Assembly: GCF_001806325.1 (NCBI RefSeq)
Contig: NZ_CP017580.1
Coordinates: forward strand, 2,480,001 to 2,544,000
DNA from: Curtobacterium sp. BH-2-1-1
Lineage (GTDB): Bacteria; Actinomycetota; Actinomycetes; Actinomycetales; Microbacteriaceae
Reading direction: 5' to 3'
Length of the DNA: 64,000 nucleotides
The translations under genes and the position numbers were made by a program. Shown one piece after another: positions 5,245 through 63,624 of the stretch (position 1 is the stretch's first letter; each line of letters opens with the position of its first letter). A model generated the notes under the pieces. The model made no database searches. It worked only from the letters and a program-made list of their open reading frames with translations, and was not told where the DNA came from.

Positions 5245-5386
5245 GGAGGCGCGGTGCAGCCGCCGTCGGTCGTGTCGCGTCCGGCAGGCCGCGGGTCGGG
5301 AGGCGCGGTGCACGCGCCGTCGGTCGTGTCGCGTCCGGCAGACCGCGGGTCGGGAGGCGCGGTGCGGGGCCGACCCGCGCCTCCCG
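5245..5386. repeat. 54-bp tandem repeats ending in an inverted pair of GGAGGCGCGG
   Basis: GGAGGCGCGG occurs at 5245, 5299 and 5353, exactly 54 bp apart. The intervening unit (starting TGCAGCCGCC or TGCACGCGCC, then GTCGGTCGTG) is nearly identical in both complete copies. The third copy pairs with CCGCGCCTCC at 5375-5384, giving 12-bp perfect arms (5351-5362 and 5375-5386). The array fills the gap between two convergent genes and could terminate transcription in both directions, though there is no T-tract. Confidence 0.85.
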
Positions 5387-5390
5387 TCCG

Positions 5391-6602
5391 TCAAGCGGTC
5401 GCGTCCGCCGTCTCGCGCGCGGACCGGTCCGCGGCGACCAGCCGCCGGGCCTCACGGAAGCGCTTCCGCAGCCGCTCGACCGGCACCTCGACCGCGTAGG
5501 CCGCCCCGACCGCGACCAGCAGGGCCGCCCCCACGAGCCACACCGTGCCCCACGCCCCGATCGCGAACGTGCCGAGCAGCGCGATGACCACGGGGTGCCA
5601 GAGGTACGCCGAGTACGACACGCGACGACCGAACCACGACACCGGCGTCCACGCGAGCGCGGCCGACAGCGGGGACCGCACCGACACCAGCCCACCGATG
5701 AGCATCGCCGAGATCAGCCCGGTCACCGGGAGCACGACGCCGAACGACCAGGCGTGCTGCGTCCAGTCATCGTCGATCCAGAACTGCACCGCGGCGAGCA
5801 GCCCGATGCCGAGCCAGGTGCCGACGTGTCCGGCGATCCCGGACGCCCACCTCCGGAAGCGCTCGTCGTCGAGGAGCAGTGCGAGCAGGCACCCGGTCGC
5901 CAGCGGCACGACGCCGAGCACGGGGGAGAAGTACACGTCCGGGGTCGCGCCGCTGTTCGGCGTCCGGTAGCTCAGCCACGACGCCGCTGCGGCACCGACG
6001 ATCACGACGCCGAGCCCGGTCATCAGCCAGCGCCGACGCGACCGCAGTGCGAACAGGAGCACGAGGACGGGCGGCCAGACGAGGTAGAACTGCTCCTCCA
6101 TCGACAGGCTCCACGTGTGCGCGAAGACGCCCTGCGTGGTGTCCCAGTACGAGCGGAAGAGGTTGCCGGTGTAGCTCAGCGCGATGAACGCCGCCTCGCC
6201 GGGGGAGAACGAGGCGCCCTTGTAGTCGCCGACCCAGTTCCACAGCGCGAGGCCGACGATGACGAGCGCGAGCAGTGCCGGGTAGAGGCGGAGGAGTCGC
6301 TTCGTCCAGAACGAGCCGAGCCGGATGCGCCCGGTGCGGCGGTGCTCGCCGAGGAGCAGCGTCGAGATGAGGAACCCGGAGAGCACGAAGAACACCGTCA
6401 CGCCGATGAACCCGCCCTCGAACTGCGGCACGTGCAGGTGGTAGAGGATCACGATGAGGATCGCGACCGTCCGGAGCCCGTCGAGCGCCGGAGCACGGTT
6501 CGTGAGCGGCGGCGGGGGCGTCGGTCGTGCGTGCCTGCCGTCGGTGTCGGCCGGAGCGGATGTCGTGCGGGTCCGCTCCGGCGAGGTCGTGGTGATGGCC
6601 AC
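5391..6602 (-). CDS. Acyltransferase 3 family (OafA-like) membrane protein
   Basis: Integral membrane O-acyltransferase of 403 residues with about ten hydrophobic segments. Family landmarks are ALDGLRTVAI near residue 38, the GGFIGVTVFFVLSGFLIS segment, and an Arg-rich cytoplasmic loop, TKRLLRLYPAL. Such proteins transfer acetyl or other acyl groups to cell-surface polysaccharides, lipids or peptidoglycan. The GTG start is favoured by AGGAGG with a 5-base spacer. The residues before 36 are Thr/Pro-rich and disordered-looking. The C-terminus ends just beyond the 54-bp repeat array. The substrate cannot be told. Confidence 0.88.
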   Translation of the reverse strand: MAITTTSPERTRTTSAPADTDGRHARPTPPPPLTNRAPALDGLRTVAILIVILYHLHVPQFEGGFIGVTVFFVLSGFLISTLLLGEHRRTGRIRLGSFWTKRLLRLYPALLALVIVGLALWNWVGDYKGASFSPGEAAFIALSYTGNLFRSYWDTTQGVFAHTWSLSMEEQFYLVWPPVLVLLFALRSRRRWLMTGLGVVIVGAAAASWLSYRTPNSGATPDVYFSPVLGVVPLATGCLLALLLDDERFRRWASGIAGHVGTWLGIGLLAAVQFWIDDDWTQHAWSFGVVLPVTGLISAMLIGGLVSVRSPLSAALAWTPVSWFGRRVSYSAYLWHPVVIALLGTFAIGAWGTVWLVGAALLVAVGAAYAVEVPVERLRKRFREARRLVAADRSARETADATA

Positions 6603-6694
6603 GGACGCCTCCTGCGCGATGCTGTCGATGGGGCCACGGGCCGTCGGGCCGTGACCGGATCGTTACATGATGCTCGCGGAAGGTAAGAGCCGTC

Positions 6695-7267: not shown

Positions 7268-7273
7268 GTCCGC

Positions 7274-7279
7274 AGTCTA
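7274..7279 (-). promoter_or_regulatory. -10 box for leaderless tetR gene
   Basis: TAGACT on the minus strand ends 6 bases before the ATG at 7267. Confidence 0.6.
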
Positions 7280-7281
7280 CT

Positions 7282-7300
7282 GATGACAGCGACTGACATC
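7282..7300. promoter_or_regulatory. Operator-like palindrome 1 (TetR)
   Basis: GATGACAG-cga-CTGACATC is an inverted repeat with 7 of 8 positions matching. It lies in the -10/-35 spacer of the tetR promoter and over the ATGACA -35 (7283-7288) of the opposite promoter. Its half-site resembles that of the palindrome at 7311-7333. Confidence 0.6.
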
Positions 7301-7306
7301 GAGTGC

Positions 7307-7312
7307 TACGGT
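7307..7312 (+). promoter_or_regulatory. -10 box of epimerase promoter
   Basis: TACGGT, with ATGACA at 7283-7288 as a possible -35 (18-base spacer). It gives a short leader that includes the second palindrome. Confidence 0.5.
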
Positions 7313-7333
7313 GACGTCAGTTCATGACATCAC
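7311..7333. promoter_or_regulatory. Operator-like palindrome 2 (TetR)
   Basis: GTGACGTCAG-ttc-ATGACATCAC matches its reverse complement at 8 of 10 arm positions. It covers the -10/+1 region of the epimerase promoter and shares the core GAYGTCA with palindrome 1. Confidence 0.6.
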
Positions 7334-7362
7334 CGCCGTGGACACCTGCGAAGGGAAAGCAC

Positions 7363-8268: not shown

Positions 8269-8282
8269 CGCGACCCACCACC

Positions 8283-8324
8283 GGCCTGGAGGCGCGTGGC
8301 GGCCCCGCCCCGCGCCTCCAGGCC
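8283..8324. terminator. Hairpin of paired GGAGGCGCG elements after epimerase gene
   Basis: Perfect 14-bp arms (8283-8296 and 8311-8324) begin GGCCTGGAGG, around a 14-base loop. The hairpin lies 14 bases past the epimerase stop. No U-tract follows, so its terminator function is inferred from position and stability. Confidence 0.55.
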
Positions 8325-8348
8325 GTCCCCGGTCCGGACCACCGCGCC

Positions 8349-8407: not shown

Positions 8408-8426
8408 TGCGCGCGCGGGGCGCGGG

Positions 8427-11849: not shown

Positions 11850-12655
11850 CCGACGCGACCACGTCGGGGACGGACGGGACGCGCACGGACCGCACCGCGC
11901 CTCCCGTCCACGTCTCCCTGCTCCGCCGCACCCGGTGGGCCGTCCTCGACTGGTGGTACGCGATCCGCTGGCAGGTGCGGAGCCTCGGGCCGACGACCGC
12001 CGACGACTACCGGAGCGGCGACGGCCAGCCCGTCGTCGTCGTGCCCGGCGTCTACGAGACCTGGCACTTCATGCGTCCGCTCATGGACGCCCTGCACGAC
12101 CGCGGACACCCCGTGCACGTGCTGCCGGTGCTGCGGCACAACCTGCGTCCGGTGCCGGAGTCCGCGGCGGAGGTGCTCGCCTACCTCGACGAACACGACC
12201 TCCGCGACGTCCTGCTCGTCGCGCACAGCAAGGGCGGGCTGATCGGGAAGTACGCGATGACGCGCCTCGACGACCACGCGCGGATCGACCGCATGGTGGC
12301 GGTGTCGACGCCGTTCGCGGGCTCCGGGTACGCGCGGCTCGCACCCGTCCGGCACCTGCGGGCGTTCCGGTCGAGCGACCCGGTGCTCGCCGGCCTCGCA
12401 CGGGAGCTCGACGCGAACGCCCGGATCACCAGCGTGTACGGCGTCTTCGACACGCTCATCCCCGAGGGCAGTGCGCTCGCCGGGGCGACGAACGTGCGGG
12501 TCCCGGTCGGCGGGCACTTCCGCATCCTCGGCGACCCGCGGACGCGTGCGGCGGTGCTGGCGGCGGCGGACCCGGACCACCCGGGCACGGCCGAACCCCG
12601 GCCGAGCTCCGGCCCGCCCCCGGCCGAGCCCCGGCCCGGCCCGACCCCGGCCTGA
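11846..12655 (+). CDS. Lipase/esterase-like alpha/beta hydrolase
   Basis: A second hydrolase, 269 residues, closer to triacylglycerol-lipase/PGAP1-like proteins. It has VVVVPGVYETW (oxyanion region), the nucleophile motif VAHSKGG, aspartate in YGVFDTLIP, and histidine in GGHFRIL. The C-terminal 25 residues are Pro-rich. The N-terminal codons include an inverted copy of the dispersed 10-mer (CCGCGCCTCC at 11895-11904), which encodes part of a linker-like TDRTAPPVH. No signal peptide is seen. It starts within the stop of the upstream hydrolase and ends 3 bases from the convergent VOC gene. Confidence 0.82.
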   Translation: MTDATTSGTDGTRTDRTAPPVHVSLLRRTRWAVLDWWYAIRWQVRSLGPTTADDYRSGDGQPVVVVPGVYETWHFMRPLMDALHDRGHPVHVLPVLRHNLRPVPESAAEVLAYLDEHDLRDVLLVAHSKGGLIGKYAMTRLDDHARIDRMVAVSTPFAGSGYARLAPVRHLRAFRSSDPVLAGLARELDANARITSVYGVFDTLIPEGSALAGATNVRVPVGGHFRILGDPRTRAAVLAAADPDHPGTAEPRPSSGPPPAEPRPGPTPA

Positions 12656-14887: not shown

Positions 14888-14972
14888 GGAGGCGCGGGTC
14901 GGGCCGGTCGCGTGCCTCCCGGCCGGCCGTGTGACGGACTGGAGGCGCGGGTCGGGGCCGCCACGCGCCTCC
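14888..14972. repeat. Two hairpin-forming GGAGGCGCGG pairs
   Basis: GGAGGCGCGG at 14888 pairs imperfectly with CGCGTGCCTCC at 14909-14919, and GGAGGCGCGG at 14941 pairs with CGCGCCTCC at 14964-14972. Both lie between the dehydrogenase stop (15006) and the methyltransferase start (14851), and are probable termination or spacer structures for minus-strand transcription. Confidence 0.7.
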
Positions 14973-20780: not shown

Positions 20781-20820
20781 GACGGGAGGCGCGGGTCGGC
20801 CCCGCCCCGCGCCTCCCGTC
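20781..20820. terminator. Hairpin of paired GGAGGCGCGG after ABC importer operon
   Basis: Perfect 15-bp arms (20781-20795 and 20806-20820, starting GACGGGAGGC) with a 10-base loop, 14 bases after the binding-protein stop. There is no U-tract. Confidence 0.6.
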
Positions 20821-20992: not shown

Positions 20993-21622
20993 GTGGGGAA
21001 GCGCGGCATCTACGTCGAGACGGTCATCGACGCGGACGTCGACCGGGTGTGGGCGGCGACGCAGGACCCCGAGCAGCACGTCCGGTGGGACGTCCGCTTC
21101 TCCGAGATCGTCCCCGAGCCGGCGGACGCCGACGGTGCCGCCCGCTTCACGTACGTCCGGCGCTCCCCGGTGCACGACGTGCACGGCACCGGCGTGAGCA
21201 TCGGCGAGCGACGTCGTGCGGACGGCACCCGCACGTCGGCACTGCGGTTCGCGACCGACGACCGGTTGTCGCCGATCCGGGCCGGCCGCGGCTACTGGCG
21301 GTACGTCCCGACCGACGACGGGCGCACCCGGTTCGTCACCGGCTACGACTACGACTCCGGCTGGGGCCCGCTCGACCTGGTGGTCCGGCCGCTCCTCGGC
21401 TGGGCGACCGCGTGGAGCTTCGACCGGCTCCGGATCTGGCTGGAAGGCGGGGCCGAGCCGGAGGCCTGGCCGCTCACCTCGGTGCTGCAGCCGTGGCAGC
21501 GGGACCGGCCCCGCGCCTCCAGGACCCGCCGCGCGCCCGTCGGTGGCACCCGGCGAGGCGACCAGCTGCACGACGCGCCCGCCACCCTGGCAGCGCTGCC
21601 CGACCCGGGAGGCGACCGATGA
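20993..21622 (+). CDS. SRPBCC (START-like) family protein
   Basis: Probable lipid- or small-ligand-binding helix-grip protein of 209 residues. IYVETVIDADVDRVWAATQDPEQHVRWDVRFSEI is the typical first strand and helix of the family. The last 40 residues (after LQPW) are Arg/Pro-rich and unlike the fold. They begin where a copy of the dispersed 10-mer (CCGCGCCTCC, 21511-21520) lies, so the tail may have been added by the repeat. It overlaps the DUF4166 gene by 4 bp. Function is unknown. Confidence 0.78.
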   Translation: MGKRGIYVETVIDADVDRVWAATQDPEQHVRWDVRFSEIVPEPADADGAARFTYVRRSPVHDVHGTGVSIGERRRADGTRTSALRFATDDRLSPIRAGRGYWRYVPTDDGRTRFVTGYDYDSGWGPLDLVVRPLLGWATAWSFDRLRIWLEGGAEPEAWPLTSVLQPWQRDRPRASRTRRAPVGGTRRGDQLHDAPATLAALPDPGGDR

Positions 21623-22314: not shown

Positions 22315-22971
22315 TCAGCGGCGGAGCCACCCCGCCTCGGCGAGCACCGTCTGGAGCTCGTCGACGAACCGGGACCCGTGGAAGCCGTCCGTGACCGCGT
22401 GGCTCACCTGGAGCGCGAGCGGCATCAGGGTGCGTCCCTCGACGAACCGGTACCGGCCGATGGTGAAGATCGGCAGCAGGTGGTCCCAGCCGTCCCGCAC
22501 GTGCAGGGCGAACCCGGTGAAGGACGCCCCGGGCAGGGTCGAGATGTCGAACACGTTCCGCGGGCGGTCCTCCTGCGGGAACATCCGGTGGTCGTCCCGG
22601 TAGCGCTCCATCGTGGCGACCGCGGCCTCGTGGAAGCGTGCCGGATCGTCGTCGTACGGCACGGTCAGCACCGAGAACGTCTCGGTGCTGCGGTGGAACA
22701 CGGTGAACATCGGGTGCACCACGTCCCAGACGGCGGGCGAGCCGTCGTCGAGCAGCTGCATCCGGAACTCGGCGTGCCGGTTCACCACCGAGGCGATCGC
22801 CCAGATCTGCGACGCGTACGTGCGGCGGTCCGTGGCGCGCACCGTCTCGGCGAAGTCCGTGACGTCGAGCTCGACGGTCATCTCCCACGTGCAGGGCACC
22901 CGGTCGCGGTAGTGCTCGAAGTGTTCGCGTCGGGGCCAGCGGTCGAGGTCGACGGGGCGGAGCTCGGTCAT
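22315..22971 (-). CDS. Chloramphenicol acetyltransferase-like protein (CatA family)
   Basis: Type A CAT-fold acyltransferase of 218 residues. VDLDRWPRREHFEHYR matches the CAT N-terminus, and LQVSHAVTDGFHGSRFVDEL carries the catalytic H-x-x-x-D-G-x-H. The family includes true chloramphenicol resistance enzymes and many acetyltransferases of unknown substrate, so resistance cannot be claimed. Its ATG overlaps the stop of the upstream HAD-fusion gene (ATGA). It lies last in a minus-strand group that begins at the CPBP gene. Confidence 0.83.
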   Translation of the reverse strand: MTELRPVDLDRWPRREHFEHYRDRVPCTWEMTVELDVTDFAETVRATDRRTYASQIWAIASVVNRHAEFRMQLLDDGSPAVWDVVHPMFTVFHRSTETFSVLTVPYDDDPARFHEAAVATMERYRDDHRMFPQEDRPRNVFDISTLPGASFTGFALHVRDGWDHLLPIFTIGRYRFVEGRTLMPLALQVSHAVTDGFHGSRFVDELQTVLAEAGWLRR

Positions 22972-24275
22972 GGGACCAGCTTCGTCGCGAGCGCCTGGTC
23001 GAGTGCCGAACGGTCCCCGTCGATCGTCACGGCGACCGCGTCGAGTGGACGCCGGCCCCAGAGGACGAGCAGCAGGTCCTCCGCCCGCCCCGTCACCCGG
23101 ACCTCCGGCCCGGCACCCGCCGTCCCGACGAGCTCCGCCTCGCCGTCGGCGTCCGGGAACCGGAACACGACGGTCTCCGACAACGGGTCGACGCGGCCGA
23201 GGCGCACCTGGCGCGGGTACAGGTCGCCGACCACCTCGCGCACGCCGTCGGCCGCGGTGTCGGCCTGGAGGCGCGGCTCGCCCCCGACCGCCTGCTGCGC
23301 GTCCCACAGGTGGATCGTCGTCTCGTGCAGCTGCCGTCGTGCCCACGTGCCGGCCGTGTCGGGTGGGTAGATCGCGCTGCACGCCGCGTCCGCGGCGCGC
23401 GCGCGGAGCGCGGCCACGAGGCGGTCCGCGCCGGCGCGGAACCGGTCGGCGAGGTCGGCGGGCTCCGGCGCTTCCGGGTCGTCCGGCTCGGTTCCGGTGA
23501 GCTGGCCGAGGGCCCAGCGGTGGACATCCGTCAGGTGCCCGGCGAGGTCCGTCAGCGTCCACCCCGGGCAAGACGGCACCACGGAGCTGTGGTCGCCCGT
23601 CCGGAGCACCGCCTCGAACCCGTCGACCGCCTCCGCGAGCAGGTCGATGTGGGCCCGGTAGGTGGATCCACCGGCGTCGGTGAGGTCGATGCCGCTCGAG
23701 CGCAGGGCAGCACGGAGTCCGTCGACCCCGGTGAAGTGGTGGACCCGCATGCCGAGTGCGACGGCCCCGGCGAGCTTCGACTCCGAGTCGTCGGTGAAGA
23801 ACACCTCGGGTCCGTCGAGGTCGAGCGCGTCGAGCACGTGCCGGAAGGCCCGGACGTCGGGCTTCGCGAACCCGATCTCGTGCGAGCTGTACAAGGCGTC
23901 GACCCGGTCGCGCAGGCCGAACGAGGCCACCTCGGCCGGGATGCCGTCCGTGCCGTTCGTGAGCACCGCCGTCGTGTACCCGGCGGCACGGAGCTCGTCC
24001 GCGAGGGCCAGCACCTCGGCGTCCGGGGTGAACGGCTGTCGGCCCCAGGCCTCGGCGGCGTCATGGTCGCCGATGCGCTCGCCGACGGCCCGGACCCACT
24101 CGGTCCGGGTGATCCGGCCGGTCGTCACCTCGTCGATCAGGGGCGCGGCGAACGCCACCGCCTCGATCGTTCCCGGTGGCAGGCCGTGCGCGCGTTCGAT
24201 GGCCGCGACGTGCTCCGGGTGGAAGTGTCGGATGACGCCGTCCAGGTCGAACAGGACCGCGCGGATGCCCGTCAC
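22968..24275 (-). CDS. HAD hydrolase fused to a DinB/maleylpyruvate-isomerase-like domain
   Basis: Two-part protein of 435 residues. Residues 1-200 are a HAD phosphatase: AVLFDLDGVIR (nucleophile Asp), TAVLTNGTDG (motif II), KPDVRAF (motif III Lys) and VFFTDDSESKLAGA (motif IV). From about residue 205 the sequence changes to HIDLLAEAVDGFEAVL, VVPSCPGWTLTDLAGHLTDVHRWAL and QLHETTIHLWDAQQAVGG. That fits the mycothiol-dependent maleylpyruvate isomerase/DinB metal-binding fold with three histidines. No frameshift separates the parts. It starts with GTG 6 bases after the VOC stop. Confidence 0.8.
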   Translation of the reverse strand: MTGIRAVLFDLDGVIRHFHPEHVAAIERAHGLPPGTIEAVAFAAPLIDEVTTGRITRTEWVRAVGERIGDHDAAEAWGRQPFTPDAEVLALADELRAAGYTTAVLTNGTDGIPAEVASFGLRDRVDALYSSHEIGFAKPDVRAFRHVLDALDLDGPEVFFTDDSESKLAGAVALGMRVHHFTGVDGLRAALRSSGIDLTDAGGSTYRAHIDLLAEAVDGFEAVLRTGDHSSVVPSCPGWTLTDLAGHLTDVHRWALGQLTGTEPDDPEAPEPADLADRFRAGADRLVAALRARAADAACSAIYPPDTAGTWARRQLHETTIHLWDAQQAVGGEPRLQADTAADGVREVVGDLYPRQVRLGRVDPLSETVVFRFPDADGEAELVGTAGAGPEVRVTGRAEDLLLVLWGRRPLDAVAVTIDGDRSALDQALATKLVP

Positions 24276-25438: not shown

Positions 25439-28400
25439 TCAGCGGACGGCGGCCAGCGCCTTCGTGATGCGCTGCAGCGAGACCGTCTCGGCGGTGCCGA
25501 GCTCCTGCGCGAACAGACTGAGCCGGAACTCCTCGAGCATCCAGCGGGCGTGCACGAGTTCCGGGTGCGCTCCGACGGACGGCGGGAAGGTGCCGCCCGC
25601 GTCGACGTACCGGTCGGTCGCGACGGTGACCTCGCGCATCCACGTGGCGTCCCGCCCGGGGTTCTGCAGGAGCTTCTGCACGCGGGCGTCGACGCCCTGC
25701 AGGTACACCCGGATGCGCCGGAGACGATCGAGCCCGGCGACCGAGACGAACCCCGGGAACACGAGCCGCTCCATCTGCTGCCGCATGTCCGTGAGCGCCG
25801 GCAGGAGCGACATCGAGTTCGCCTGCTTGAGCGACCGTTCCGCGGCTCGGTGCGCGGCGAGGACCGCGGCCACCTCGGACACGGCGGTGAACATCGTGTC
25901 GACGACGGTCGCGGACACGGTGTCGCGCACGGACTCGAAGTCGGTCTTCGTGAACACCAGCCCGTCGGGGTGCTCCCGGCGGATGCCGGCGTCCACGACC
26001 GCCGCGAGGACGTCGTCGAAGAGCGCCGCGGTGGAGGGGTACGGGCTGGCGGCGAGCGCGAGCTTCTCCTGCGCGGTCAGGTGGGACTGGATGTAGGAGA
26101 CCGGCGAGGGCACCGCGTGCATGACCAGCCGCCGGACACCCGCGGGCATCCGCACGGCCCGGTCGGACGGCGTCGCGAGCAGCTGGACGCCGACCGTCGC
26201 CTTCGGGCCGTCGCCCTCCTCCACGAGGGACGGGTACGCGCGGATCACGCCACCCGCCTGCTTCGTGTCGAGCACCTGCGGCAGGTCGTCGGGGGGCCAG
26301 GCGGTGAGCCCTGACCGCTCCACGGCACCACCGGAGGCGGCGGACGCGACGCGAGCCGCGCCTCCTGGACGCCCTGCGGCGCGCGTCGTCGCCGAGGCGA
26401 CGCTCTGCTGCGTCCGGTCCTTGAGCTTCGTCTGCAGCGCCGAGAGGTCCTTGCCGGCCTCGACCCGACGGCCGCGTTCGTCGACGATCGCCCACGTCGG
26501 CAGGAGGTGGGCCGGTACCCGCGAGAGGTCGAAGTCCGACTCCGACACCGGCACGTACGTCATGCGCTGGATCGCCTTGGCGAGGGTGGCGCGGAACGAC
26601 TCGGTCGGCTCGGTCGGGGCGTCGTCGGGGAGCTCGGCGACGATCTTCTCGGCCCAGTCGGCAGCGGGGACGACGTTCTTCCGGATCTGCTTCGGCAGGG
26701 ACTTGATGAGCGCCGTGACGAGCTCCTTGCGGAGGCCGCGGACCTGCCAGTCGAAGCCCTCTTCGCGCATGCGGGGGAGCAGCGCGAGCGGCACCTGCAC
26801 GCTCACGCCGTCGTCCTGTGCGCCGGGTTCGAACCGGTACTTGATCGCGAGGCGCTGGTCGCCGCTCCGCCACTGGGTCGGGTACTCCTGCTGGTCCTGT
26901 GCGGCCTCGGCCGCGTCTTCGTCCAGCAGGTCCGACCGGCGCATCGTGAGCAGGTCCGGCTGCTCGCGTCTCGTCTGCCGCCACCAGCCCTCGAAGTCGC
27001 GCGTGGTCGCGATGTCGGCCGGGATTCGGGCGTCGTAGAACTCGAAGACCCGCTCGTCGTCGAAGAGGATGTCGCGGCGACGCGTGCGCTCCTCGAGCTG
27101 TTCGAGCTCGCGCCGCAGCCTGCGGTTGTCGCGGTCGAACGCCTGCTGCGCGTCCCACTCGCCCTCGACGAGCGCGTGCCGGATGAAGAGCTCACGCGAG
27201 TGCTCCGGGTCGACGCGCTTGTACTGCACGCGGCGGCGCTGGACGATCGGGACGCCGAACAGGGTGACCCGCTCGTAGGCGACCGCCGCACCCTGCTTCT
27301 TCTCCCAGTGGGGTTCGCCGTAGGTGCGCTTCAGGAGGTCCCCGGCGAGCGGCTCGACCCACGCCGGGTCGATCCGACCGACCGTCCGCGCGAAGAGCCG
27401 ACTCGTCTCGACGAGTTCGGCGGCCATCACCGCGTCCGGCTGCTTCTTGGCGAGGACACTGCCGGGGAACACCACGAACCGGGTGTTCCGCGAGCCGAGG
27501 TAGTCGCGCTTCTCACGGTCGCGCAGACCGATCTGGCTGAGGAGTCCGGCCAGCAGGGAACGGTGCACCGCGTCGCCGTCGTCGGAGCGCGCCTGCCCGA
27601 TGCGGACGTCGACCTGCTTCGCCGCACGGGAGAGCTGCCGGTACAGGTCCTGCCACTCGCGGATGCGGAGGTAGTTCAGGAACTCGGCCTTGCACAGGCG
27701 GCGGAACGCACTGGACGAGAGCTCGTCCTGCTTGTCCTCGATGTGGTTCCAGAGGTTGAGCAGGGTGAGGAAGTCGCTCGTCGGATCGGCGAACCGGGAG
27801 TGCAGCTGGTCGGCGTGTGCGCGCTTCTCGAGGGGGCGCTCGCGCGGGTCCTGGATGCTCAGTGCGCTGACGACGGCGATGACCTCGCGCCCGACGCCCT
27901 GCCGACCGGCCTCGAGCACCATGCGTCCGAGCCGGGGGTCGATGGGCAACCGGGTGAGCTGCTTGCCGGTCTTCGTGATCGTGCCCGCGGCGTCGACGGC
28001 TCGGAGCTCGCGGAGCAGGTCGAGGCCGTCCTTCACACCCCGGGAGTCCGGCGGCTGCAGGAACGGGAACGCCTCGATGTCACCGAACCCCAGCGAGATC
28101 ATCTGCAGGATCACCGCCGCGAGGTTCGTCCGGAGGATCTCGGGGTCGGTGAACTCCGGACGGCGTTCGAAGTCGTCCTCGGAGTAGAGCCGGATCGCGA
28201 TGCCGGCGCTCGTGCGGCCCGCGCGACCGGAGCGCTGGTTCGCGCTCGCCTGCGAGATCGCCTCGATCGGCAGTCGCTGCACCTTGGCCCGCGGCGAGTA
28301 GCGCGAGATGCGGGCGGTGCCGACGTCGATCACGTACTTGATGCCGGGAACCGTCAGACTCGTCTCCGCCACGTTGGTCGCGAGGACCACTCGGCGTCGG

Positions 28401-29299
28401 ATGCCCGGTGTGGTGCGCCGCTCGAAGACCCGGTGCTGGTCGGCGGCGGACAGGCGACCGTAGAGCGGGAGGACCTCGGTACCGGGGTAGCGTTTGCCCT
28501 CGATGGCGTCCTGGGCGTCGCGGATCTGGTTCTCGCCGGAGAGGAACACGAGGACGTCGCCCGGGTCCTCCTGCGCGAGTTCGTCGAGCGCGTCGGTGAT
28601 GCCCTGCATCGTGTCGCGGTCGTCGGCCGTGCGCCCGCCGTGGTCGTCCGTCCGCGGATCGTCCTCGTCGCCTTCGTCGTCGCGGTCGGCGTCGTCGGCG
28701 TCCTCCGCGACGAGCGGGCGGTACCGGATCTCGACCGGGTAGGTGCGGCCGGAGACCTCGATGATCGGTGCCCCGCCGAAGTGCTGCGAGAACGACTCGG
28801 GGTCGATCGTCGCACTCGTGATGATGAGCTTGAGGTCCGGCCGACGGGGGAGCAGCCGCTTGAGGTAGCCGAGCAGGAAGTCGATGGTGAGGGACCGCTC
28901 GTGCGCCTCGTCGATGATGATCGTGTCGTACCGCTTGAGGTCGCGGTCGAAGTGGATCTCGTTGAGCAGGATGCCGTCGGTCATCAGCTTGACCCGGGTG
29001 TCGGAGGACACCTTGTCGGTGAAGCGGACCTGGTACCCGACGAGTCCGCCGAGCTCGCCCCCGAGCTCCTCGGACACGCGCTCGGCGATGGTCCGGGCCG
29101 CGATCCGCCGGGGCTGGGTGTGCCCGATGTGCTCACGTCCGAGCTCGAGGCAGATCTTCGGCAGCTGGGTGGTCTTGCCCGACCCCGTGGCACCGGCGAC
29201 GATCACGACCTGGTTGTCGCGGATGGCGGCAGCGATGTCGTCCCGCCGCTGCGACACCGGCAGTTCGGGCGGGTACGTGATGACGGGGGTGGCAGACAT
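25439..29299 (-). CDS. hrpA: ATP-dependent RNA helicase HrpA
   Basis: DEAH-box RNA helicase of 1286 residues, the full length expected for HrpA. Walker A GATGSGKTTQLP near residue 35, DEAH in IIIDEAHERS, motif III SATID, motif VI QRSGRAGRTSAG, and a long C-terminal region (OB fold plus DUF3418-like) are all present. It acts in RNA remodelling and, in E. coli, rescue of stalled or collided ribosomes. ATG at 29299 has GGAGGGCT upstream; earlier in-frame codons are non-conserved. Near residue 975 a low-complexity insertion coincides with an inverted copy of the dispersed 10-mer (26356-26365). Confidence 0.95.
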   Translation of the reverse strand: MSATPVITYPPELPVSQRRDDIAAAIRDNQVVIVAGATGSGKTTQLPKICLELGREHIGHTQPRRIAARTIAERVSEELGGELGGLVGYQVRFTDKVSSDTRVKLMTDGILLNEIHFDRDLKRYDTIIIDEAHERSLTIDFLLGYLKRLLPRRPDLKLIITSATIDPESFSQHFGGAPIIEVSGRTYPVEIRYRPLVAEDADDADRDDEGDEDDPRTDDHGGRTADDRDTMQGITDALDELAQEDPGDVLVFLSGENQIRDAQDAIEGKRYPGTEVLPLYGRLSAADQHRVFERRTTPGIRRRVVLATNVAETSLTVPGIKYVIDVGTARISRYSPRAKVQRLPIEAISQASANQRSGRAGRTSAGIAIRLYSEDDFERRPEFTDPEILRTNLAAVILQMISLGFGDIEAFPFLQPPDSRGVKDGLDLLRELRAVDAAGTITKTGKQLTRLPIDPRLGRMVLEAGRQGVGREVIAVVSALSIQDPRERPLEKRAHADQLHSRFADPTSDFLTLLNLWNHIEDKQDELSSSAFRRLCKAEFLNYLRIREWQDLYRQLSRAAKQVDVRIGQARSDDGDAVHRSLLAGLLSQIGLRDREKRDYLGSRNTRFVVFPGSVLAKKQPDAVMAAELVETSRLFARTVGRIDPAWVEPLAGDLLKRTYGEPHWEKKQGAAVAYERVTLFGVPIVQRRRVQYKRVDPEHSRELFIRHALVEGEWDAQQAFDRDNRRLRRELEQLEERTRRRDILFDDERVFEFYDARIPADIATTRDFEGWWRQTRREQPDLLTMRRSDLLDEDAAEAAQDQQEYPTQWRSGDQRLAIKYRFEPGAQDDGVSVQVPLALLPRMREEGFDWQVRGLRKELVTALIKSLPKQIRKNVVPAADWAEKIVAELPDDAPTEPTESFRATLAKAIQRMTYVPVSESDFDLSRVPAHLLPTWAIVDERGRRVEAGKDLSALQTKLKDRTQQSVASATTRAAGRPGGAARVASAASGGAVERSGLTAWPPDDLPQVLDTKQAGGVIRAYPSLVEEGDGPKATVGVQLLATPSDRAVRMPAGVRRLVMHAVPSPVSYIQSHLTAQEKLALAASPYPSTAALFDDVLAAVVDAGIRREHPDGLVFTKTDFESVRDTVSATVVDTMFTAVSEVAAVLAAHRAAERSLKQANSMSLLPALTDMRQQMERLVFPGFVSVAGLDRLRRIRVYLQGVDARVQKLLQNPGRDATWMREVTVATDRYVDAGGTFPPSVGAHPELVHARWMLEEFRLSLFAQELGTAETVSLQRITKALAAVR

Positions 29300-29382: not shown

Positions 29383-29982
29383 GTGCACGTGTGGATCCGC
29401 CCGAGCGCGCGTGGTGCGGTGCGAGGAGCGGCAACCGCTCGGGAGCGGCCCTGGGATGCACTGGCCGCGGTCCGGACGCTCGACGCGGAACTGAGCACCG
29501 GCCGACGGTTCTGGGGTGGGACGGTCTCGGTCGCACTCGCGGTGCTCGGAGGCGCGGTGCTGTTCGGGGTCGGCGGCGCTCGGAGCGGTCCGGATGTCGT
29601 CGCAGTGGCGATCACTGCCTCGCTGCTGCTGGGAGCGGCGCTCTGTGTGGGGATCGGAGTCCTCCGTGCACGGCACGCCATCGTCGAGGCGTTCGTGACG
29701 TGGTCGTCGATGTCGGCGCCGCTCGGCCCTTCGTCGGTCTTCACCGGGCAGCTCAGCGGGAAGAGAATCGCTCGTACGGCGCTCGCCGCCGTGCTCTTCA
29801 TCGCCGCTGCGTTCAGCTGGTCGTCGGTCGCGGCCGGCCCGTGGGCGTCCGATGACTGGTCGTTCCGCCTGTCCGCCGTTGTGTGGGGTGTCGCCAGCAC
29901 GGTCGCGATGCTCGCTGTCGTCGCGACCGAGGTCCGTGGGAACCTCGCTCGGACCGGGCGCATCGCCCGTGGCCGGCTCTGA
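29383..29982 (+). CDS. Hypothetical four-helix membrane protein
   Basis: Not recognised. The 199-residue product has a short charged N-terminus, then four hydrophobic stretches (about residues 45-65, 73-95, 132-150 and 163-183), arranged as two pairs around a polar loop. The GTG start has GAGGAGAGG 9 bases upstream. It is divergent from hrpA and convergent with the DUF255 gene. One copy of GGAGGCGCGG (29548-29557) lies inside the second codon block of helix 1. No catalytic motif is seen. Confidence 0.65.
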   Translation: MHVWIRPSARGAVRGAATARERPWDALAAVRTLDAELSTGRRFWGGTVSVALAVLGGAVLFGVGGARSGPDVVAVAITASLLLGAALCVGIGVLRARHAIVEAFVTWSSMSAPLGPSSVFTGQLSGKRIARTALAAVLFIAAAFSWSSVAAGPWASDDWSFRLSAVVWGVASTVAMLAVVATEVRGNLARTGRIARGRL

Positions 29983-30036: not shown

Positions 30037-31872
30037 TCACGCGCTGAGCTGTGCCGTCAGCTCGTCGACCGACCGCGCGGGCAGGGCGCACACGCGGTCG
30101 TGGCAGACGTACCCGGCGGGGTCGAGCCCGTCACGGGACTCGAAGAGCGTGAAGCCCGCGGCCGACCAGTCGGCCGCCTGCGCCGGGGTCACCGTGGCGA
30201 CGACGGTCCCCTGACGCCGAGCGCCGCGGGCCGCCGCACGGATCGGGTCGTCCGGGTCCGACGCGACCACGACGACCTCGCGCGAGGGACGCTGCAGCGC
30301 GAGCGCAACCCCGAGGGCATCGGCGTGCCCGAGCGGCCGCTCCGTCCCGGTGACGGCCCGGTCGGCCACGAGCGACAGCGCCGCCGCCCGGTACGACTCG
30401 TTGCCGGTCAGCGCGGCGAGCGTCGCGGCGGCCGCGGCGAGTGCGACCGTGCCGGAGCGCATGGCGGTCTGCGGCTGCTCGCCCGTGGCGGTGCCGGCTG
30501 CCGCGAGCACCGGGTCGGTGTCGAACCGCCCGGCCAGGCCGTCGTCGACCAGCGTGCGCGCGACGTCGGCGTGGGGGCGCTCCCCGGTGACGAGGGCGAG
30601 TTCGAGGAGCCCTTCGGCGAGGAGTCCCACGTCCTCGATGGTGGGCGCCGCCGTCGACGCGCCTCGCGGAGTGCTCGACCGCACCGACACGTGTCCGTCC
30701 GTGAGGTGCCCGGCGACGATCGCGTCGGCCGCACCCCGTGCGAGCTCGATCATCTCGGCGTCGCCGTGGCGGGCCCCGGCGATGGCGAGCCCCCGGATCG
30801 CCAGGCCGTTCCACCCGGTGAGCACTTGGTCGTCGAGCGGCGGAGGATCGAGCCGCCCACGCTCGTCGAGCGGGAGTCGGTACCACTCGCCCTCGACCCG
30901 CCGGCCGTCGATGGTGGACTCGCTGTCCTGCGCCGCGACGAACACGCCGTCCGCACGCCGGAGCGTGTCCCGCAGGAAGTCGGCGATGCCCCGGGCCTGC
31001 TCCGCCCCGGCCACCGCGAGCAGTCCCGCGTTGTCGTAGAGCATCCGCTCGTAGTGCGGCACCGACCAGTCGCGCTTGGTCGCGTACCGGAAGACCCCGC
31101 CGTCGGCGTCGGTCAGCTCGCTCGCGCGGATCGCGTGCAGGGAACGTTCGAGCAGTGCGGACGCCCGAGCGTCGCCGTCGGCGGCGACGTCCGACAGGAA
31201 CTCGAGGAGCGGCGCGCTCGGGAACTTGGGGGCACCGCCGAAACCGCCGTGCGTGGTGTCCTCGGCTCGTGCCAGTTGGTCGACGACGGCTCGGACGTCG
31301 TCGACGCTCGGGAGGCGCGGCTCGTCCCCGCCACCGTCCGCGCCACCGCGGGCGGTCCGGTCCGCCTCGGCACCCTGCCGGATCGCCGCGGCGATCGCAC
31401 TCGCGTTCGCGTCCACCTCGTGCCGGCGCTCGGTCCACGCGTCGAGCACCGCCGCCAGGATCTGCCGGAACGCCGGCACCTGCCCGACGGGCGACGGCGG
31501 GAAGTACGTCCCCGCGAAGAACACGTGCCCGTCCGGTGTGAGGAACGTCGTCAGGGGCCAGCCGAGCTGCTGCGTGAAGGCACTCGCCGAGGCCATCAGG
31601 CTGGCGTCCACGTCCGGCCGTTCTTCGCGGTCGACCTTCACCGCGACGAAGTCCTGGCGGAGCAGCTCGCCGATGCCCGGGTCGGAGAAGCTCTCGCGCG
31701 CCATGACGTGGCACCAGTGGCACGTGGCGTAGCCGACCGACACGAGCACGGGGACGTCGCGCTCGCGGGCCTCGGCGAAGGCTTCCGGGCCCCACTCACG
31801 CCAGTCCACCGGGTTGTCGGCGTGCTGGCGGAGGTACGGGCTGACGGCGGATCCGAGGCGGTTGTCCGTCAT
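30037..31872 (-). CDS. DUF255/YyaL-type thioredoxin-domain protein
   Basis: Protein of 611 residues like the widespread YyaL family. An N-terminal thioredoxin fold carries [15 protein letters not shown] with a CxxC-type CHWC active site near residue 47. A C-terminal alpha/alpha-barrel resembling N-acylglucosamine 2-epimerases follows, with [32 protein letters not shown] and [17 protein letters not shown]. The biological role is not established. A CAGGCT box ends 6 bases before the ATG. One copy of the dispersed 10-mer lies at 31311-31320 in the spacer between domains. Confidence 0.9.
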
Positions 31873-40452: not shown

Positions 40453-40499
40453 CCGGACTGGAGGCGCGGCTCCGGACGCGCACCGCGCCTCCCGTCCGG
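40453..40499. terminator. Hairpin of paired GGAGGCGCGG between rsmI and metG
   Basis: Arms 40453-40469 and 40483-40499 (17 bp, one mismatch; CCGGACTGGAGGCGCGG on the left) with a 13-base loop, 12 bases past the rsmI stop. Confidence 0.65.
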
Positions 40500-48892: not shown

Positions 48893-49891
48893 GTGAGCAC
48901 TCCCCGCGTGTACGTCATCCACGAGAACCCCGAGTGGTTCCCGCCGCTCGCCGCTGCCTTCGAGGCCGAGGGGGTCCCCGTCGAGGAGATCCTCCTCACC
49001 GAGGGACAGATCGACCTCGCAGCCGACCCCGAACCGGGCGTGTACTGGTCGCGGATGTCGGCGAGCTCCCACACGCGCGGGCACGAGCACTCGAAGGAGT
49101 ACACCCGCGCGGTCCTCGGCTGGCTCGAGCGGGCCGGTCGACCGGTCGTCGGCGGCAGCCACGTCCTCGAGCTCGAGGTCTCGAAGGTCGCCCAGCACGG
49201 ACTGCTCCGGAACGCCGGGTTCGACGTGCCCCGCACCACGGCCGTCTTCGGGCGCACGACGCTCAAGCAGGCGGCCCACGACTTCACCGGCGGCCAGGAC
49301 GTGCCGTTCATCACGAAGCACAACCAGGGCGGCAAGGGCCTCGGCGTCCGCCGGTTCGACTCGCTCGCCGAGTTCGACGCCTACGTCGACAGCCCGGAGT
49401 TCGAGGAGCCCGTCGACGGCATCACCCTGCTGCAGGAGTACCTCACGGCCCGCGAGCCGTTCATCACACGCGTCGAGTTCGTCGGCGGCGAGTTCGTCTA
49501 CGCCGTCCGCGTCGACACGAGCGCCGGCAGCTTCGAGCTGTGCCCGGCCGACGCCTGCGAGGTCCCGCAGGTCATCGCCGGTGCGGTCTGCGACGTCCCC
49601 GGCACCGAGGCCGCCGGGGCACCCCCGGCGTTCAGCGTCCGCACGGAGGTCACCGCCGAACACCCGCTCGTCCAGCAGCTCCGCGGGTTCCTCGCGGAGC
49701 AGCGGATCCAGATCGCGGGCGTCGAGTTCATGGAGACGACGGACGGTCGCACGGTCGTCTACGACATCAACACGAACACGAACTACAACCCCGCCGTCGA
49801 GGAGACCGCGCCGGCCTCCGGCCCGCGCTCCATCGCGCGGTACCTCGGTGGCCTGCTGGAGACGCAGTACGCGGCGCAGCTCACGGCCTGA
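48893..49891 (+). CDS. ATP-grasp domain protein (RimK/D-Ala ligase-like)
   Basis: Predicted ATP-dependent carboxylate-amine or -thiol ligase of 332 residues. The N-terminal pre-ATP-grasp part (VYVIHENPEWFPPLAAAFEAEG) is followed by PFITKHNQGGKGLGVRRFDS (ATP-binding lysine and glycine loop), LLQEYLTAREPFITRVEFV, and QIAGVEFMETTDGRTVVYDINTNTNYNP, which carries the Mg-binding Glu and D-x-N-x-N ligands. The specific substrate is not known. It heads a group with an LLM flavin monooxygenase and a MetY-like enzyme; a hairpin separates it from them, so expression may be reduced downstream. Confidence 0.8.
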   Translation: MSTPRVYVIHENPEWFPPLAAAFEAEGVPVEEILLTEGQIDLAADPEPGVYWSRMSASSHTRGHEHSKEYTRAVLGWLERAGRPVVGGSHVLELEVSKVAQHGLLRNAGFDVPRTTAVFGRTTLKQAAHDFTGGQDVPFITKHNQGGKGLGVRRFDSLAEFDAYVDSPEFEEPVDGITLLQEYLTAREPFITRVEFVGGEFVYAVRVDTSAGSFELCPADACEVPQVIAGAVCDVPGTEAAGAPPAFSVRTEVTAEHPLVQQLRGFLAEQRIQIAGVEFMETTDGRTVVYDINTNTNYNPAVEETAPASGPRSIARYLGGLLETQYAAQLTA

Positions 49892-49906: not shown

Positions 49907-49950
49907 CGGACTGGAGGCGCGGTGCGGGCCCGCCCCGCGCCTCCAGTCCG
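49907..49950. terminator. Hairpin of paired GGAGGCGCGG after ATP-grasp gene
   Basis: Perfect 16-bp arms (49907-49922, CGGACTGGAGGCGCGG, and 49935-49950) with a 12-base loop, 15 bases past the stop. It may terminate or attenuate before the LLM gene. Confidence 0.65.
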
Positions 49951-57443: not shown

Positions 57444-58268
57444 GTGCCCGACCACACTGACCGAACACCCCGGGCGAGCCCGTCCGTCCGCACCCCGGTG
57501 CCGTGGTGGCTGCCGGTCCCGGCGGTCCTCGGCGGCCTGTTCGTGGTGGTCCCGGTCCTGGCGATGGTCGGCCGCGTCGACTGGGGGTCGTTCGGCGCAC
57601 TCGTCACGTCGCCCGCGTCGCTCACCGCCCTCGGACTGAGTCTCGGGACCGCTGCCGCCGCGACGGGCATCGCCTTCGTGCTCGGCTACCCGCTCGCCGT
57701 CCTGTTCGCCCGGTCCACGTCGCGGTGGATCGGGGCCGCACGCGCCCTGGTCCTGCTGCCGCTCGTGCTGCCGCCGGTCGTCGGGGGACTGGCCCTCCTC
57801 GCGGCGTTCGGTCGGCTCGGCGTCGTCGGGGCGTGGCTCGACGACCACGGTCTCCGGATCGCCTTCACCACGGCCGCGGTCGTGATCGCGCAGACCTTCG
57901 TCGCGATGCCGTTCCTGGTGTCCTCGATCGAGGGTGCGCTGCGCGTCGGGGGCGACCGGTTCGAGCGGGTCGCCGCGACGCTCGGTGCGTCCCCGACCCG
58001 GACGTTCCTGACGGTGACGACACCGCGGGTGCTCCCGGGCATCCTGGCCGGCCTCGTCCTCTGCTTCGCCCGTGCCCTCGGGGAGTTCGGCGCGACCCTC
58101 ACGTTCGCCGGCAGCCTGCAGGGCGTCACCCGGACGCTGCCCCTCGAGATCTACCTGCAGCGCGAGATCGACCCGGACACCGCGGTCGCGCTGGCGCTCG
58201 TGCTGGTCGTCGTCGCGCTCGTGGTCATCGGCGCCTCCGCGCTCCGCACCCGGACGGCACTCGCATGA
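57444..58268 (+). CDS. modB: Molybdate ABC transporter permease ModB
   Basis: Inner-membrane permease of 274 residues with five to six hydrophobic segments. The EAA loop [28 protein letters not shown] and [17 protein letters not shown] are the typical ModB/CysT features. GTG start 3 bases after the modA stop; it overlaps modC by 4 bp. The N-terminal 20 residues are polar. Confidence 0.94.
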
Positions 58269-59311
58269 GCCGCGAGCGTCCGGCGCACAGCGGCCTCCGC
58301 GCCCACGTCGTCGTCCCCGACCGTGGCGTCGACGTCCACCTCGACGTCGCACCGGACGAGTGCGTCGCGCTGGTCGGGCCGAACGGCGCGGGCAAGTCCA
58401 CGGTCGTCGAGGCCCTCGCCGGACTGCTGCGCATCCGGTCCGGATCGGTCCTGCTCGGCGACCGCGACCTCACGGGCGTCCGAGCGCACCGCCGCGGGGT
58501 CGGGCTCGTCGCCCAGCGCGCGGACCTCTTCCCCCACCTGTCGGTCGCTCGCAACGTCGGCTACGGACCGCGCGCGGCCGGTTCCGGGGGCCAGGAGGCG
58601 CGGCTCCGCTCCGACGCGGCCCTCGCCGCCGTCGGCGTGGCCGGTCTGGCGGACCGCGCACCGGGGACGCTCTCGGGAGGGCAGGCCCAGCGCGTGGCGA
58701 TCGCCCGGGCCCTCGCCACCGAGCCGGCGCTCCTGCTGCTCGACGAGCCCACCTCGGCGCTCGACGTCGACGCCCGGGCCGAGGTCCGCTCCGCCCTCGG
58801 GACCGCCCGGACCGGTCGACCGACGGTCCTCGTCACGCACGACCCGCTCGAGGCCGTCACCCTCGCGGACCGCATCGTCGTGCTCGAGGGCGGCCGGGTC
58901 GCCGAGCAGGGACCGACCGCCGTCGTCCTCGGGCGTCCGACCAGCGCGTTCGCGGCGTCCTTCTCGGGCCTGACGCTCCTGCGCGGCACCGCCACCCGGG
59001 GTGGGATCGCCCTCGACGACGGGGGTGCGCTCGCGTCGTCGACCGGCACCGCGCCTCCTGGCTCGTCCGCCCTCGCCGTCTACCACCCGACGGCCGCCGT
59101 CGTGACGCGCGACGGTGCCGGGCCGGGGCGCCGGGTGACCGGACTCGAACCGCGGGACGGGCTCGTCCGGGTGCGGGCCGGTGACCTCGTGGCGGACGTC
59201 ACGGTCGCGGTGGCTGCGGCGCTGGCGCTCGCGCCGGGGGATGCCGTGCGGATCGCGGTCCCGGCGGACGAACTGGCGGTCTACCGGCCGGACGGACCCA
59301 CGCCGGACTGA
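58265..59311 (+). CDS. modC: Molybdate ABC transporter ATP-binding protein ModC
   Basis: ATPase of 348 residues. Walker [20 protein letters not shown]-loop [15 protein letters not shown], signature [16 protein letters not shown] and Walker [13 protein letters not shown] are intact. A C-terminal region ending in [26 protein letters not shown] is the Mop/TOBE-like domain. Two copies of the dispersed 10-mer lie inside the gene (58594-58603 and, inverted, 59049-59058), giving GQEARLRSD and [10 protein letters not shown] at surface loops. It is followed by a 26-bp tandem repeat. Confidence 0.94.
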
Positions 59312-60682: not shown

Positions 60683-60687
60683 GAGCG

Positions 60688-62133: not shown

Positions 62134-62151
62134 GGTGCGACGAGGCTATCC

Positions 62152-63624
62152 ATGGTCCGCGGGCTGCTCCTGGATGCACGATCCGCGATGGCGTCGCCGA
62201 ACCGGAACGCGCGGACGGCGGTCGTCCTGGGGCGGTTGCTCGGGGTGGCGTTCCTGGTCTGCTTCGCGACCGGCGTCTACAGCTACTTCCTCCAGCAGCC
62301 GCTGCCGTGGATGCGGTTCCCGACCCGTCCCGCGCAGCTCTACCAGTTCACGCAGGGCGTGCACATCACCGCGGGGATCGCGATCATCCCGCTGCTGCTC
62401 GCGAAGCTCAACACGGTCATGCCGGCACTCGTGCAGACCCCGCCGGTGCGTGGGCCGCTGCACCTGCTCGAGCGGCTCTCGATCGCGGTGTTCGTGGCGT
62501 CGGCGATCGTGCAGGTGACGACGGGCCTGCTCAACACGTACCAGTGGTACCCGTGGCCGTTCCCGTTCAAGCAGGTCCACAACGCGCTCGCGTACGTGCT
62601 CATCGGGTCGCTCGTGCTGCACATCGGCGTGAAGCTCCGGCTGATCACCCGGTACTGGCGGAAGCGGGACTCGTACGACGAGCACGGCCGGTTCGTGGTC
62701 GACCCGGCCGCGGGGAGCGAGCTGCTCTCGCCGTCCCAGGAGGAACGGGGCGCTTCCACCGGGCCGGATGCGCCTCCGCAGGCGGTCGCGTCCTACCCCC
62801 GCGGCGTCACCGGCCGTGTGCTCCGCTGGGTCGACGGCGTGCCGGCCGAGCCCGCCGTCCCGGCCGTCCCGGCGGACGCTGCCGAGACTCGTCCCGGCGG
62901 ACCGGACTCGGCGTCCGCGACCCGAGCGGCGTCCGCAGAGCCGAGTCTCGGCGTGCCGCAGGACGGTGCGGCGGAGGCGAGCCGCGCCTCCAGGGCCACG
63001 CCGGACGCGACCGACGGTCGACGTGAGCGGATCGCCCGACGCGGGTTCTTCGCCGGTGTGACCGCCGCGACGGTCGGTGTCGTGGCGTTGACCGCCGGAC
63101 AGTCGAGCACGCTCGCCGAGCCGTTCAACGTGTTCGGCGCCCGACAGCGGCACCGCGGGCCGAACGACCTGCCGGTCAACCGCACGGCCCGTGCCGCCGG
63201 TGTGCTGGCGACCGCCACCGCCGCCGACTGGTCCCTGACCGTCGTCGGGCACGACGTGGTCCGCACCTTCTCGCGAGCCGAGCTGGTGGCGCTCGGCACC
63301 GCCGAGGCCGAGCTCCCCATCTCCTGCGTCGAGGGCTGGAGCCAGATGGCGACCTGGAAGGGCGTGCGCATGCGCGACCTGCTCGGCGCCGTGCAGGCCG
63401 CGCCGGGGTCGCACGTGCGGGTGACGAGCCTCGAGCGGCACGGCGGCTACCGCATCATGGACATGGGCCCCGAGTACGCCGAGGACCCGACGACGCTCGT
63501 CGCGCTCGAGCTGAACGGCGCGACGCTCGACCTCGACCACGGGTTCCCGGCGCGGATCATCGCTCCCGGACGACCCGGTGTGCTGCAGACCAAGTGGATC
63601 GAGAAGATCGAGGTGATCGCATGA
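62152..63624 (+). CDS. Cytochrome b-type membrane domain fused to a molybdopterin (SUOX/YedY-like) oxidoreductase
   Basis: Fusion of 490 residues. The first 165 residues hold four membrane helices with histidines suitable for b heme (QGVHITAGIAI, QVHNALAYVLIGSLVLHIGVK). A polar Pro/Ala/Glu linker (about 190-290) carries an inverted copy of the dispersed 10-mer. RRERIARRGFFAGVTAATVGVVAL is a second membrane or Tat-like anchor. The last 160 residues are an SUOX-type Mo domain with the Mo-ligand Cys in LPISCVEGWSQMATWKGV and TTLVALELNG. It looks like YedZ and YedY in one chain. ATG at 62152; a start at 62188 is possible. Confidence 0.83.
   Translation: MVRGLLLDARSAMASPNRNARTAVVLGRLLGVAFLVCFATGVYSYFLQQPLPWMRFPTRPAQLYQFTQGVHITAGIAIIPLLLAKLNTVMPALVQTPPVRGPLHLLERLSIAVFVASAIVQVTTGLLNTYQWYPWPFPFKQVHNALAYVLIGSLVLHIGVKLRLITRYWRKRDSYDEHGRFVVDPAAGSELLSPSQEERGASTGPDAPPQAVASYPRGVTGRVLRWVDGVPAEPAVPAVPADAAETRPGGPDSASATRAASAEPSLGVPQDGAAEASRASRATPDATDGRRERIARRGFFAGVTAATVGVVALTAGQSSTLAEPFNVFGARQRHRGPNDLPVNRTARAAGVLATATAADWSLTVVGHDVVRTFSRAELVALGTAEAELPISCVEGWSQMATWKGVRMRDLLGAVQAAPGSHVRVTSLERHGGYRIMDMGPEYAEDPTTLVALELNGATLDLDHGFPARIIAPGRPGVLQTKWIEKIEVIA

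Follow-up and report, generated by a model that had tools for sequence, protein, structure and literature searches.

A dispersed 10-mer of Curtobacterium resembles a DNA-uptake sequence

We analysed a 10-bp motif, GGAGGCGCGG, that recurs throughout a 64,000-nt stretch of the Curtobacterium sp. BH-2-1-1 genome (the window; positions 2480001-2544000 of a genome that forms a single contig of 3,795,948 bp). Comparisons within this genome and among its relatives suggest that the motif is probably a DNA-uptake-sequence-like element, present in Curtobacterium and, in a form with other flanks, in Frigoribacterium. A preliminary description of the window had proposed an uptake sequence because copies occurred both as inverted pairs behind genes and singly within them. 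This proposal gains from an excess of copies in genes, from dialects of the motif, from turnover of sites by substitution, from the lack of a replichore bias, from even spacing in the window genome and from the presence of comEA-comEC and a pilus locus. It loses from the share of coding copies expected from codon usage, from uneven spacing in Frigoribacterium and from hairpins that are also probable terminators.

The window contains 22 exact copies of GGAGGCGCGG, 12 on the plus and 10 on the minus strand, all where the preliminary description had placed them. We expected 1.71 ± 1.36 copies, and the maximum among 100 dinucleotide shuffles was 5, in agreement with the earlier estimate of about two. 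Genome-wide the count is likewise far from expectation: the motif occurs 967 times (495 forward and 472 reverse), or about once per 3.9 kb, versus 92 times (50 and 42) for the reversed word. We sampled the genome in 60 evenly spaced 20-kb stretches, which together with the window make up 1,264,000 bp. There, GGAGGCGCGG was the most over-represented 10-mer, with 334 copies versus 12.9 expected from an order-4 Markov model (z = 89). Genes were called with a purpose-written codon-score script, which yielded 1209 genes and 87.6% coding sequence; the calls are uncurated and some gene ends will be wrong. By these calls, the 12.4% of bases between genes hold 239 of the 334 copies, and genes hold the other 95. 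The reversed word was found 29 times in genes and never between them. When the motif was masked, the next top 10-mer of the sample was CTCGCGCAGG (70 vs 16.4, z 13), which is possibly codon-driven.

An extended consensus and frequent hairpins

The conserved site is longer than 10 bp and reads roughly GG[AC]CN-GGAGGCGCGG-NNC. Between genes, C occupies position -2 in 99% of the copies and position +12 in 94%; positions -5 and -4 are G in about 80%, and -3 is A or C. In genes the pattern is similar, with C at -2 in 91%, G at -5 in 77% and C at +12 in 83%. Outside the hairpins described below, strongly shared letters extend only about 5 bp in the 5' and 3 bp in the 3' direction, with weaker ones further 3', so the copies do not belong to a single repeat family with long identical flanks.

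The tight inverted pairs behind genes, first described in the window, recur across the sample. The window has four exact pairs, with loops of 12, 12, 13 and 12 nt, and 62 of the 73 '+-' neighbours that lie at most 60 bp apart in the sample have a loop of exactly 12 nt. The '+-' pairs at this distance of up to 60 bp contain 145 of the 239 intergenic copies. Another 88 have no second exact copy within 60 bp, some of them with an imperfect arm. When we required one exact arm and allowed up to two mismatches between arms, 108 relaxed hairpins were found, of which 48 lie in convergent gaps, 55 in tandem gaps and five in divergent gaps (1.72, 0.68 and 0.14 per kb, respectively). Those in tandem gaps lie a median of 23 bp past the stop codon. 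RNA folding was strong in all four hairpins tested (z -3.2 to -8.7). The hairpins sit where terminators are expected and very probably have a second role as terminators. An Rfam scan of the window returned no family at a credible score; M23 (E 0.16) and mir-H11 (E 0.98) were both below the gathering threshold.

Copies inside genes exceed codon usage

The single copies noted in coding regions proved not to be peculiar to the window, where nine of the 22 copies lie inside called genes and 13 between them. The 95 coding copies in the sample compare with the 29.1 ± 5.1 obtained by permuting synonymous codons gene by gene (100 shuffles), so that codon usage leaves some two thirds of them unexplained. 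The excess occurs on both strands and in several frames, and is also seen in gene interiors after 60 bp were dropped at both ends (70 vs 21.4, 20 shuffles). Requiring the extended motif, with C at -2 and +12, gave 92 coding copies versus 15.2 in the window genome. Codon usage was rejected as the sole cause of the coding copies, since it covers only about 29 of the 95.

Genomes with other forms of the motif gave smaller numbers. In three pooled genomes of the T clade (see below), coding copies of the extended motif numbered 15 versus 3.5, and copies of any dialect 30 versus 17.4. The T-clade excess is visible only with the extended motif or with any dialect.

One position of the motif differs between clades

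The related genomes that the preliminary description had proposed to compare carry the motif as well: its dialects are present in 60 Curtobacterium genomes and its core in Frigoribacterium. Each of the 60 Curtobacterium genomes exceeds the reversed control at least threefold in at least one dialect, as read from three count tables. Position 7 is G, C or T across them, and genomes with few copies of GGAGGCGCGG have many of GGAGGCTCGG and/or GGAGGCCCGG. The G, T and C forms number 967, 25 and 44 in the window genome, 94, 448 and 239 in genome G030, and 89, 126 and 411 in genome G045. By subtraction from the any-dialect count, the window genome has 100 copies of GGAGGCACGG.

We placed the dialects on a tree of a single protein, HrpA, built for 26 genomes. 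One clade consists of nine genomes with the G dialect, and a second of ten that are rich in T and/or C. Genomes with C-rich or mixed dialects are found close to the base of the G clade and outside both clades. Coding copies carry the local dialect. Among the extended coding copies of the window genome, G stands at position 7 in 75 of 92 (8.1 expected); A is enriched (8 vs 0.5) and C is not (5 vs 6.9). In the three pooled T-clade genomes, 8 of 15 have T, where 0.5 would be expected. As copies in genes and between genes agree in dialect, a single recogniser for both is the simplest explanation.

Sites in genes change mostly in place

Among 26 Curtobacterium loci, 13 orthologous positions in genes carry the extended motif, each in 4.4 genomes on average, versus 1.5-1.6 for three control words. 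Only five of these 13 sites are common to at least two genomes, so the mean owes most to a small number of broadly shared sites. This per-site comparison is the reliable one, as the orthology tallies (583/1065 vs 64/578) count the same sites repeatedly. Non-carrier alignments at Curtobacterium coding sites showed substitutions in 66 of 80 cases, small gaps in nine and gaps of at least 4 in five; for the control words, gaps of at least 4 were found in 13 of 333. Frigoribacterium has 22 coding sites, of which 15 are common to at least two of six genomes, and its non-carriers differ by substitution in 25 of 34 alignments. These alignments suggest that coding sites change mostly by turnover in place. 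Between genes, where sites align less well, gaps of at least 4 were found in 8 of 54 non-carrier alignments, and some intergenic hairpins may have moved.

Taxonomic range

We surveyed 199 Microbacteriaceae genomes from 85 genera. Large counts of the motif, also when any dialect was counted, were found only in all four Curtobacterium genomes, in all three of genus g35 (926-1378 copies) and in one of the three from genus g55 (399). A second g55 genome showed a slight excess (133 vs 98), and some other genomes of the family were above the control at low counts, such as G109 (17 vs 5). No other comparable count appeared in a survey of the order (297 genomes, 95 genera), where a few genomes were again above the control at low counts, such as G463 (29 vs 10).

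The g35 genome G093 is, by its HrpA identity of 87%, Frigoribacterium or very near it. It carries the same core with other flanks, and 74 of its 116 copies are coding, where 9.0 would be expected. Six named Frigoribacterium loci held 10-23 copies each per 21-24 kb; there were none in the one Frondihabitans locus and one in each of two Clavibacter loci. On the HrpA tree, g55 is placed beside Clavibacter. A related word, TGGAGGCGGT, is in excess in genes of g55 genome G113 (15 vs 4.2; stretches L234-L241) and is perhaps a further dialect. The HrpA matches in g55 genomes G113 (L211) and G234 (L212) each contain one in-frame TGA.

Copies are evenly spaced and without polarity in the window genome

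The preliminary description had named strand and polarity as discriminating features. Copies are oriented 167:167 relative to the replichore with the terminus assumed at 1.9 Mb (171:163 at 1.7 Mb and 164:170 at 2.1 Mb), and single coding copies 43:45. There is thus no replichore bias.

We examined spacing in the 54 stretches with a GC content of at least 0.69. Only the motif itself fell within the count range and no equally frequent control 10-mers were available, so the null preserved the site density within each class of gap. The variance/mean of merged sites in 20-kb stretches was 0.38, versus 0.86 ± 0.16 under this null, and none of 5000 nulls was as low. Neighbours less than 1 kb apart made up 8%, versus 18% after sites were re-dealt.

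Competence and pilus genes

Proximity to competence genes had also been named as a discriminator, and such genes are present in the genome. comEA and comEC are adjacent at about 3.328 Mb, and a type IV pilus locus at G000:C1:1950105-1962957 (L041:105-12957) comprises pilB, pilT, pilC, prepilins, pilD, pilM, pilN and pilO. Pfam supports pilB and pilT (PF00437), pilC (PF00482), one prepilin (N_methyl) and pilO (PF04350). The major prepilin, two further prepilin-like proteins, the prepilin peptidase, pilM and pilN are presumed from sequence and gene order. An additional T2SSE-family ATPase gene is present besides this locus.

PilM is 64-65% identical to its counterparts in two congeneric species and 73% to that of a basal one; HrpA of one of the two (G052) is 94% identical. 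Going by these identities, the pilus locus diverges unusually fast or has been exchanged. comEA and comEC (L179, L168-L180) show about 60-73% identity between eleven Curtobacterium genomes and the window genome. Pilus genes were rejected as a discriminating factor: a pilM-like gene is present in 97 of the 199 family genomes, including all ten of Curtobacterium, g35 and g55, and is thus compatible with the motif without discriminating.

A possible uptake system in a Gram-positive phylum

We lean, by a narrow measure, towards a fuller account of these data, in which a true uptake-sequence system arose within a Gram-positive phylum, in Curtobacterium and Frigoribacterium, independently of those of Neisseriaceae and Pasteurellaceae. 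Either ComEA or a pilin of the type IV pilus would read the motif, and the clade dialects would act as barriers or bridges to gene exchange. In the probable reading given at the outset, this sequence-specific receptor, a putative part of the natural-transformation machinery, would prefer DNA containing about GG[AC]CN-GGAGGC-N-CGG-NNC, so that DNA of the same or a near species would be taken up and recombined more often. Through such a bias, point substitutions could build up the motif wherever the sequence tolerates it, at hundreds of places in genes and between them, with inverted pairs doubling as hairpin terminators behind genes. Were the preference of the receptor to shift, the dialect at position 7 would be rewritten genome-wide. 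Transformability of the cells, binding of the motif by a receptor and termination of transcription at the hairpins are inferred parts of this account.

Several results weigh against an uptake sequence. Codon usage alone accounts for the equivalent of some 29 of the 95 coding copies, and in G035, a genome of the C dialect, the coding excess is not significant (extended motif 3 vs 1.7, shuffle maximum 4). Hairpins contain the majority of the intergenic copies, and terminators alone could explain these. Copies in Frigoribacterium are not evenly spaced, with a variance/mean of 2.5 per 20 kb and of 1.2 per 10 kb where GC is at least 0.69. In the window genome, the six stretches with GC below 0.69, a cut-off chosen after seeing the data, hold 12 copies versus 33 expected, and across all 60 stretches copy number correlates weakly with GC (rho 0.25, p 0.054). 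The low-GC stretches are presumably foreign. One of them has no copy and holds a gene with an Lsr2 domain and assorted metabolic genes; another includes the pilus locus and has a single copy. Considering this single copy and a PilM identity of 64-65% where that of HrpA is about 94%, the pilus locus does not obviously follow the dialect. The uptake machinery also extends well beyond the motif, given the pilM-like genes counted above and comEC in 19 of 20 relatives.

The strongest competing explanation is a binding site inside the cell, to which a nucleoid-organising or replication/repair protein would bind at even intervals; its specificity would have drifted between clades, and the hairpins would be terminators that include the site. 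Such a site mimics the even spacing and the lack of orientation bias in the window genome, would equally supply the single recogniser implied by the shared dialect, and is in keeping with machinery for uptake that is not specific to motif-bearing genera. It explains the rewriting of dialects less easily: selection would have to rewrite hundreds of sites at each change of specificity, which biased uptake would do unaided. Considering also that Frigoribacterium sites are uneven and that no candidate protein came up, although no search was aimed at one, we find this rival unlikely, if still the most serious one. A standard terminator hairpin that spread or was conserved in Curtobacterium, combined with codon usage in genes (EAR-type codons), would account for the fixed 12-nt loop, for the strong folding of all four hairpins tested and for the concentration of relaxed hairpins in convergent and tandem gaps (103 of 108). 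It leaves aside the 88 intergenic copies without a partner within 60 bp, the coding copies, which outnumber the codon null and follow the dialect of their genome, and the mostly coding copies of Frigoribacterium, which makes it improbable.

The preliminary description had also considered repetitive extragenic palindromic (REP) elements and Chi-like sites, and neither fared well. REP elements and REPINs are short palindromes between genes with species-specific variants. A mobile palindrome of this kind, with decayed single copies, would fit the fixed spacing, intergenic bias and species-specific variants of the palindromes here, the larger gaps in intergenic alignments and a local 54-bp tandem repeat. 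Unlike REP/REPIN families with their REP-associated tyrosine transposases (RAYT), however, none of the 60 Curtobacterium genomes has a Y1 transposase (PF01797), which matched in 5 of 14 control genomes. Coding copies turn over mostly by substitution in both genera, few insertion patterns occur in genes, and spacing in the window genome is over-even, so a REP-like origin is very hard to sustain. A polar recombination or segregation signal, such as Chi or the FtsK-orienting polar sequences (KOPS), could likewise be frequent, partly coding and lineage-specific. The balanced orientation to the replichore, among all copies and single coding copies alike, and the many inverted pairs speak against polarity, and we give this alternative hardly any weight.

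Comparison with known uptake sequences

An uptake sequence in Curtobacterium would join systems described in two families. DNA uptake sequences (DUS) of Neisseriaceae form dialects that follow the core-genome tree, occur as inverted pairs at terminators and are common within genes. The motif here is like them in these respects, and also in its length of about 10-12 bp and its hundreds to thousands of copies (PMC3630211). It differs in having an unrelated sequence in an unrelated phylum, and its uptake and receptor are putative, whereas DUS have the receptor ComP. Uptake signal sequences (USS) of Pasteurellaceae lack an orientation bias and are reported to be evenly spaced, but less so than chromosome-compacting sites would be (PMC1939737). 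Their inverted pairs serve as terminators and their types are clade-bound (PMC12616744). The motif resembles USS in its core with a less conserved extended consensus and in its lack of orientation bias (PMC1939737), and likewise in its inverted pairs at probable terminators and its clade-bound types. It differs in sequence, and has a density of about one per 3.9 kb, compared with about one per kb in H. influenzae (PMC7811141).

Among Actinobacteria, Micrococcus luteus is transformed with ComEA/ComEC and Flp/tad pili (PMC4322843). Curtobacterium is similar in having genes for ComEA/ComEC and a pilus, but its pilus locus is of type IV with pilT and not Flp/tad; the phrase 'uptake sequence' is absent from PMC4322843. 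The literature that we searched described no such motif for Curtobacterium, Frigoribacterium or Actinobacteria. According to a 2020 paper, strong uptake preference for short motifs is found in two families, both Gram-negative (PMC7811141).

If the motif is an uptake sequence, it would be a third independent case, in Actinomycetota, and evidence that self-recognition by biased uptake is within reach of cells with a very different envelope. Curtobacterium cells have no outer membrane, unlike those of Neisseriaceae. The motif would then also offer a new system in which to study why dialects change, and would predict which lineages are able to exchange genes. Even if its function were intracellular, one letter rewritten at hundreds of sites between sister clades calls for explanation.

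Individual copies in the window

The intergenic copies of the window begin with a tandem repeat on the plus strand (5245..5365; 2.2 copies of a 54-bp unit), in which the motif opens each unit (copies at 5245, 5299 and 5353). It adjoins an exact inverted pair with a 12-nt loop (5353..5384). A minus-strand copy between convergent genes (8310..8319) is followed by an imperfect inverted partner, and two direct plus-strand copies in a tandem gap (14888 and 14941; 14888..14950) are each followed by an imperfect inverted arm. The three other exact hairpins lie after genes. One with a 12-nt loop (20785..20816) is 18 bp past the gene ending at 20766 (RNA fold z -4.7), one with a 13-nt loop (40460..40492) follows the gene ending at 40440 (z -3.2), and one with a 12-nt loop (49913..49944) follows the gene ending at 49891 (z -5.9).

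Of the copies assigned to genes, that at 11895..11904 (minus strand) is 49 bp within a called gene start and may be intergenic. The others are single copies, five of them antisense to their gene: 21511..21520 (minus) in gene 20993-21622 (plus); 23267..23276 (plus) in gene 22968-24275 (minus), present in both aligned relatives shown; 31311..31320 (plus) in gene 30037-31872 (minus), where aligned relatives have G, C or T at position 7; 59049..59058 (minus) in gene 58265-59311 (plus); and 62982..62991 (minus) in gene 62152-63624 (plus). Gene 58265-59311 also has a sense copy at 58594..58603 (plus). The plus-strand copy at 29548..29557, in gene 29383-29982 (plus), is without C at -2, and no relative aligned there. 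Another sense copy, at 26356..26365 (minus), lies in the HrpA-type helicase gene (25439-29299, minus), and the aligned place holds the motif or a position-7 variant in many Curtobacterium loci. At 92-93% identity to its counterparts at the four nearest full-length loci of named Curtobacterium among the matches listed, the HrpA-type protein (25442-29299) places the genome in this genus. The window also contains a gene of the chloramphenicol acetyltransferase family (22318-22971; PF00302, E 2.5e-64), which adjoins a gene with HAD/MDMPI domains.

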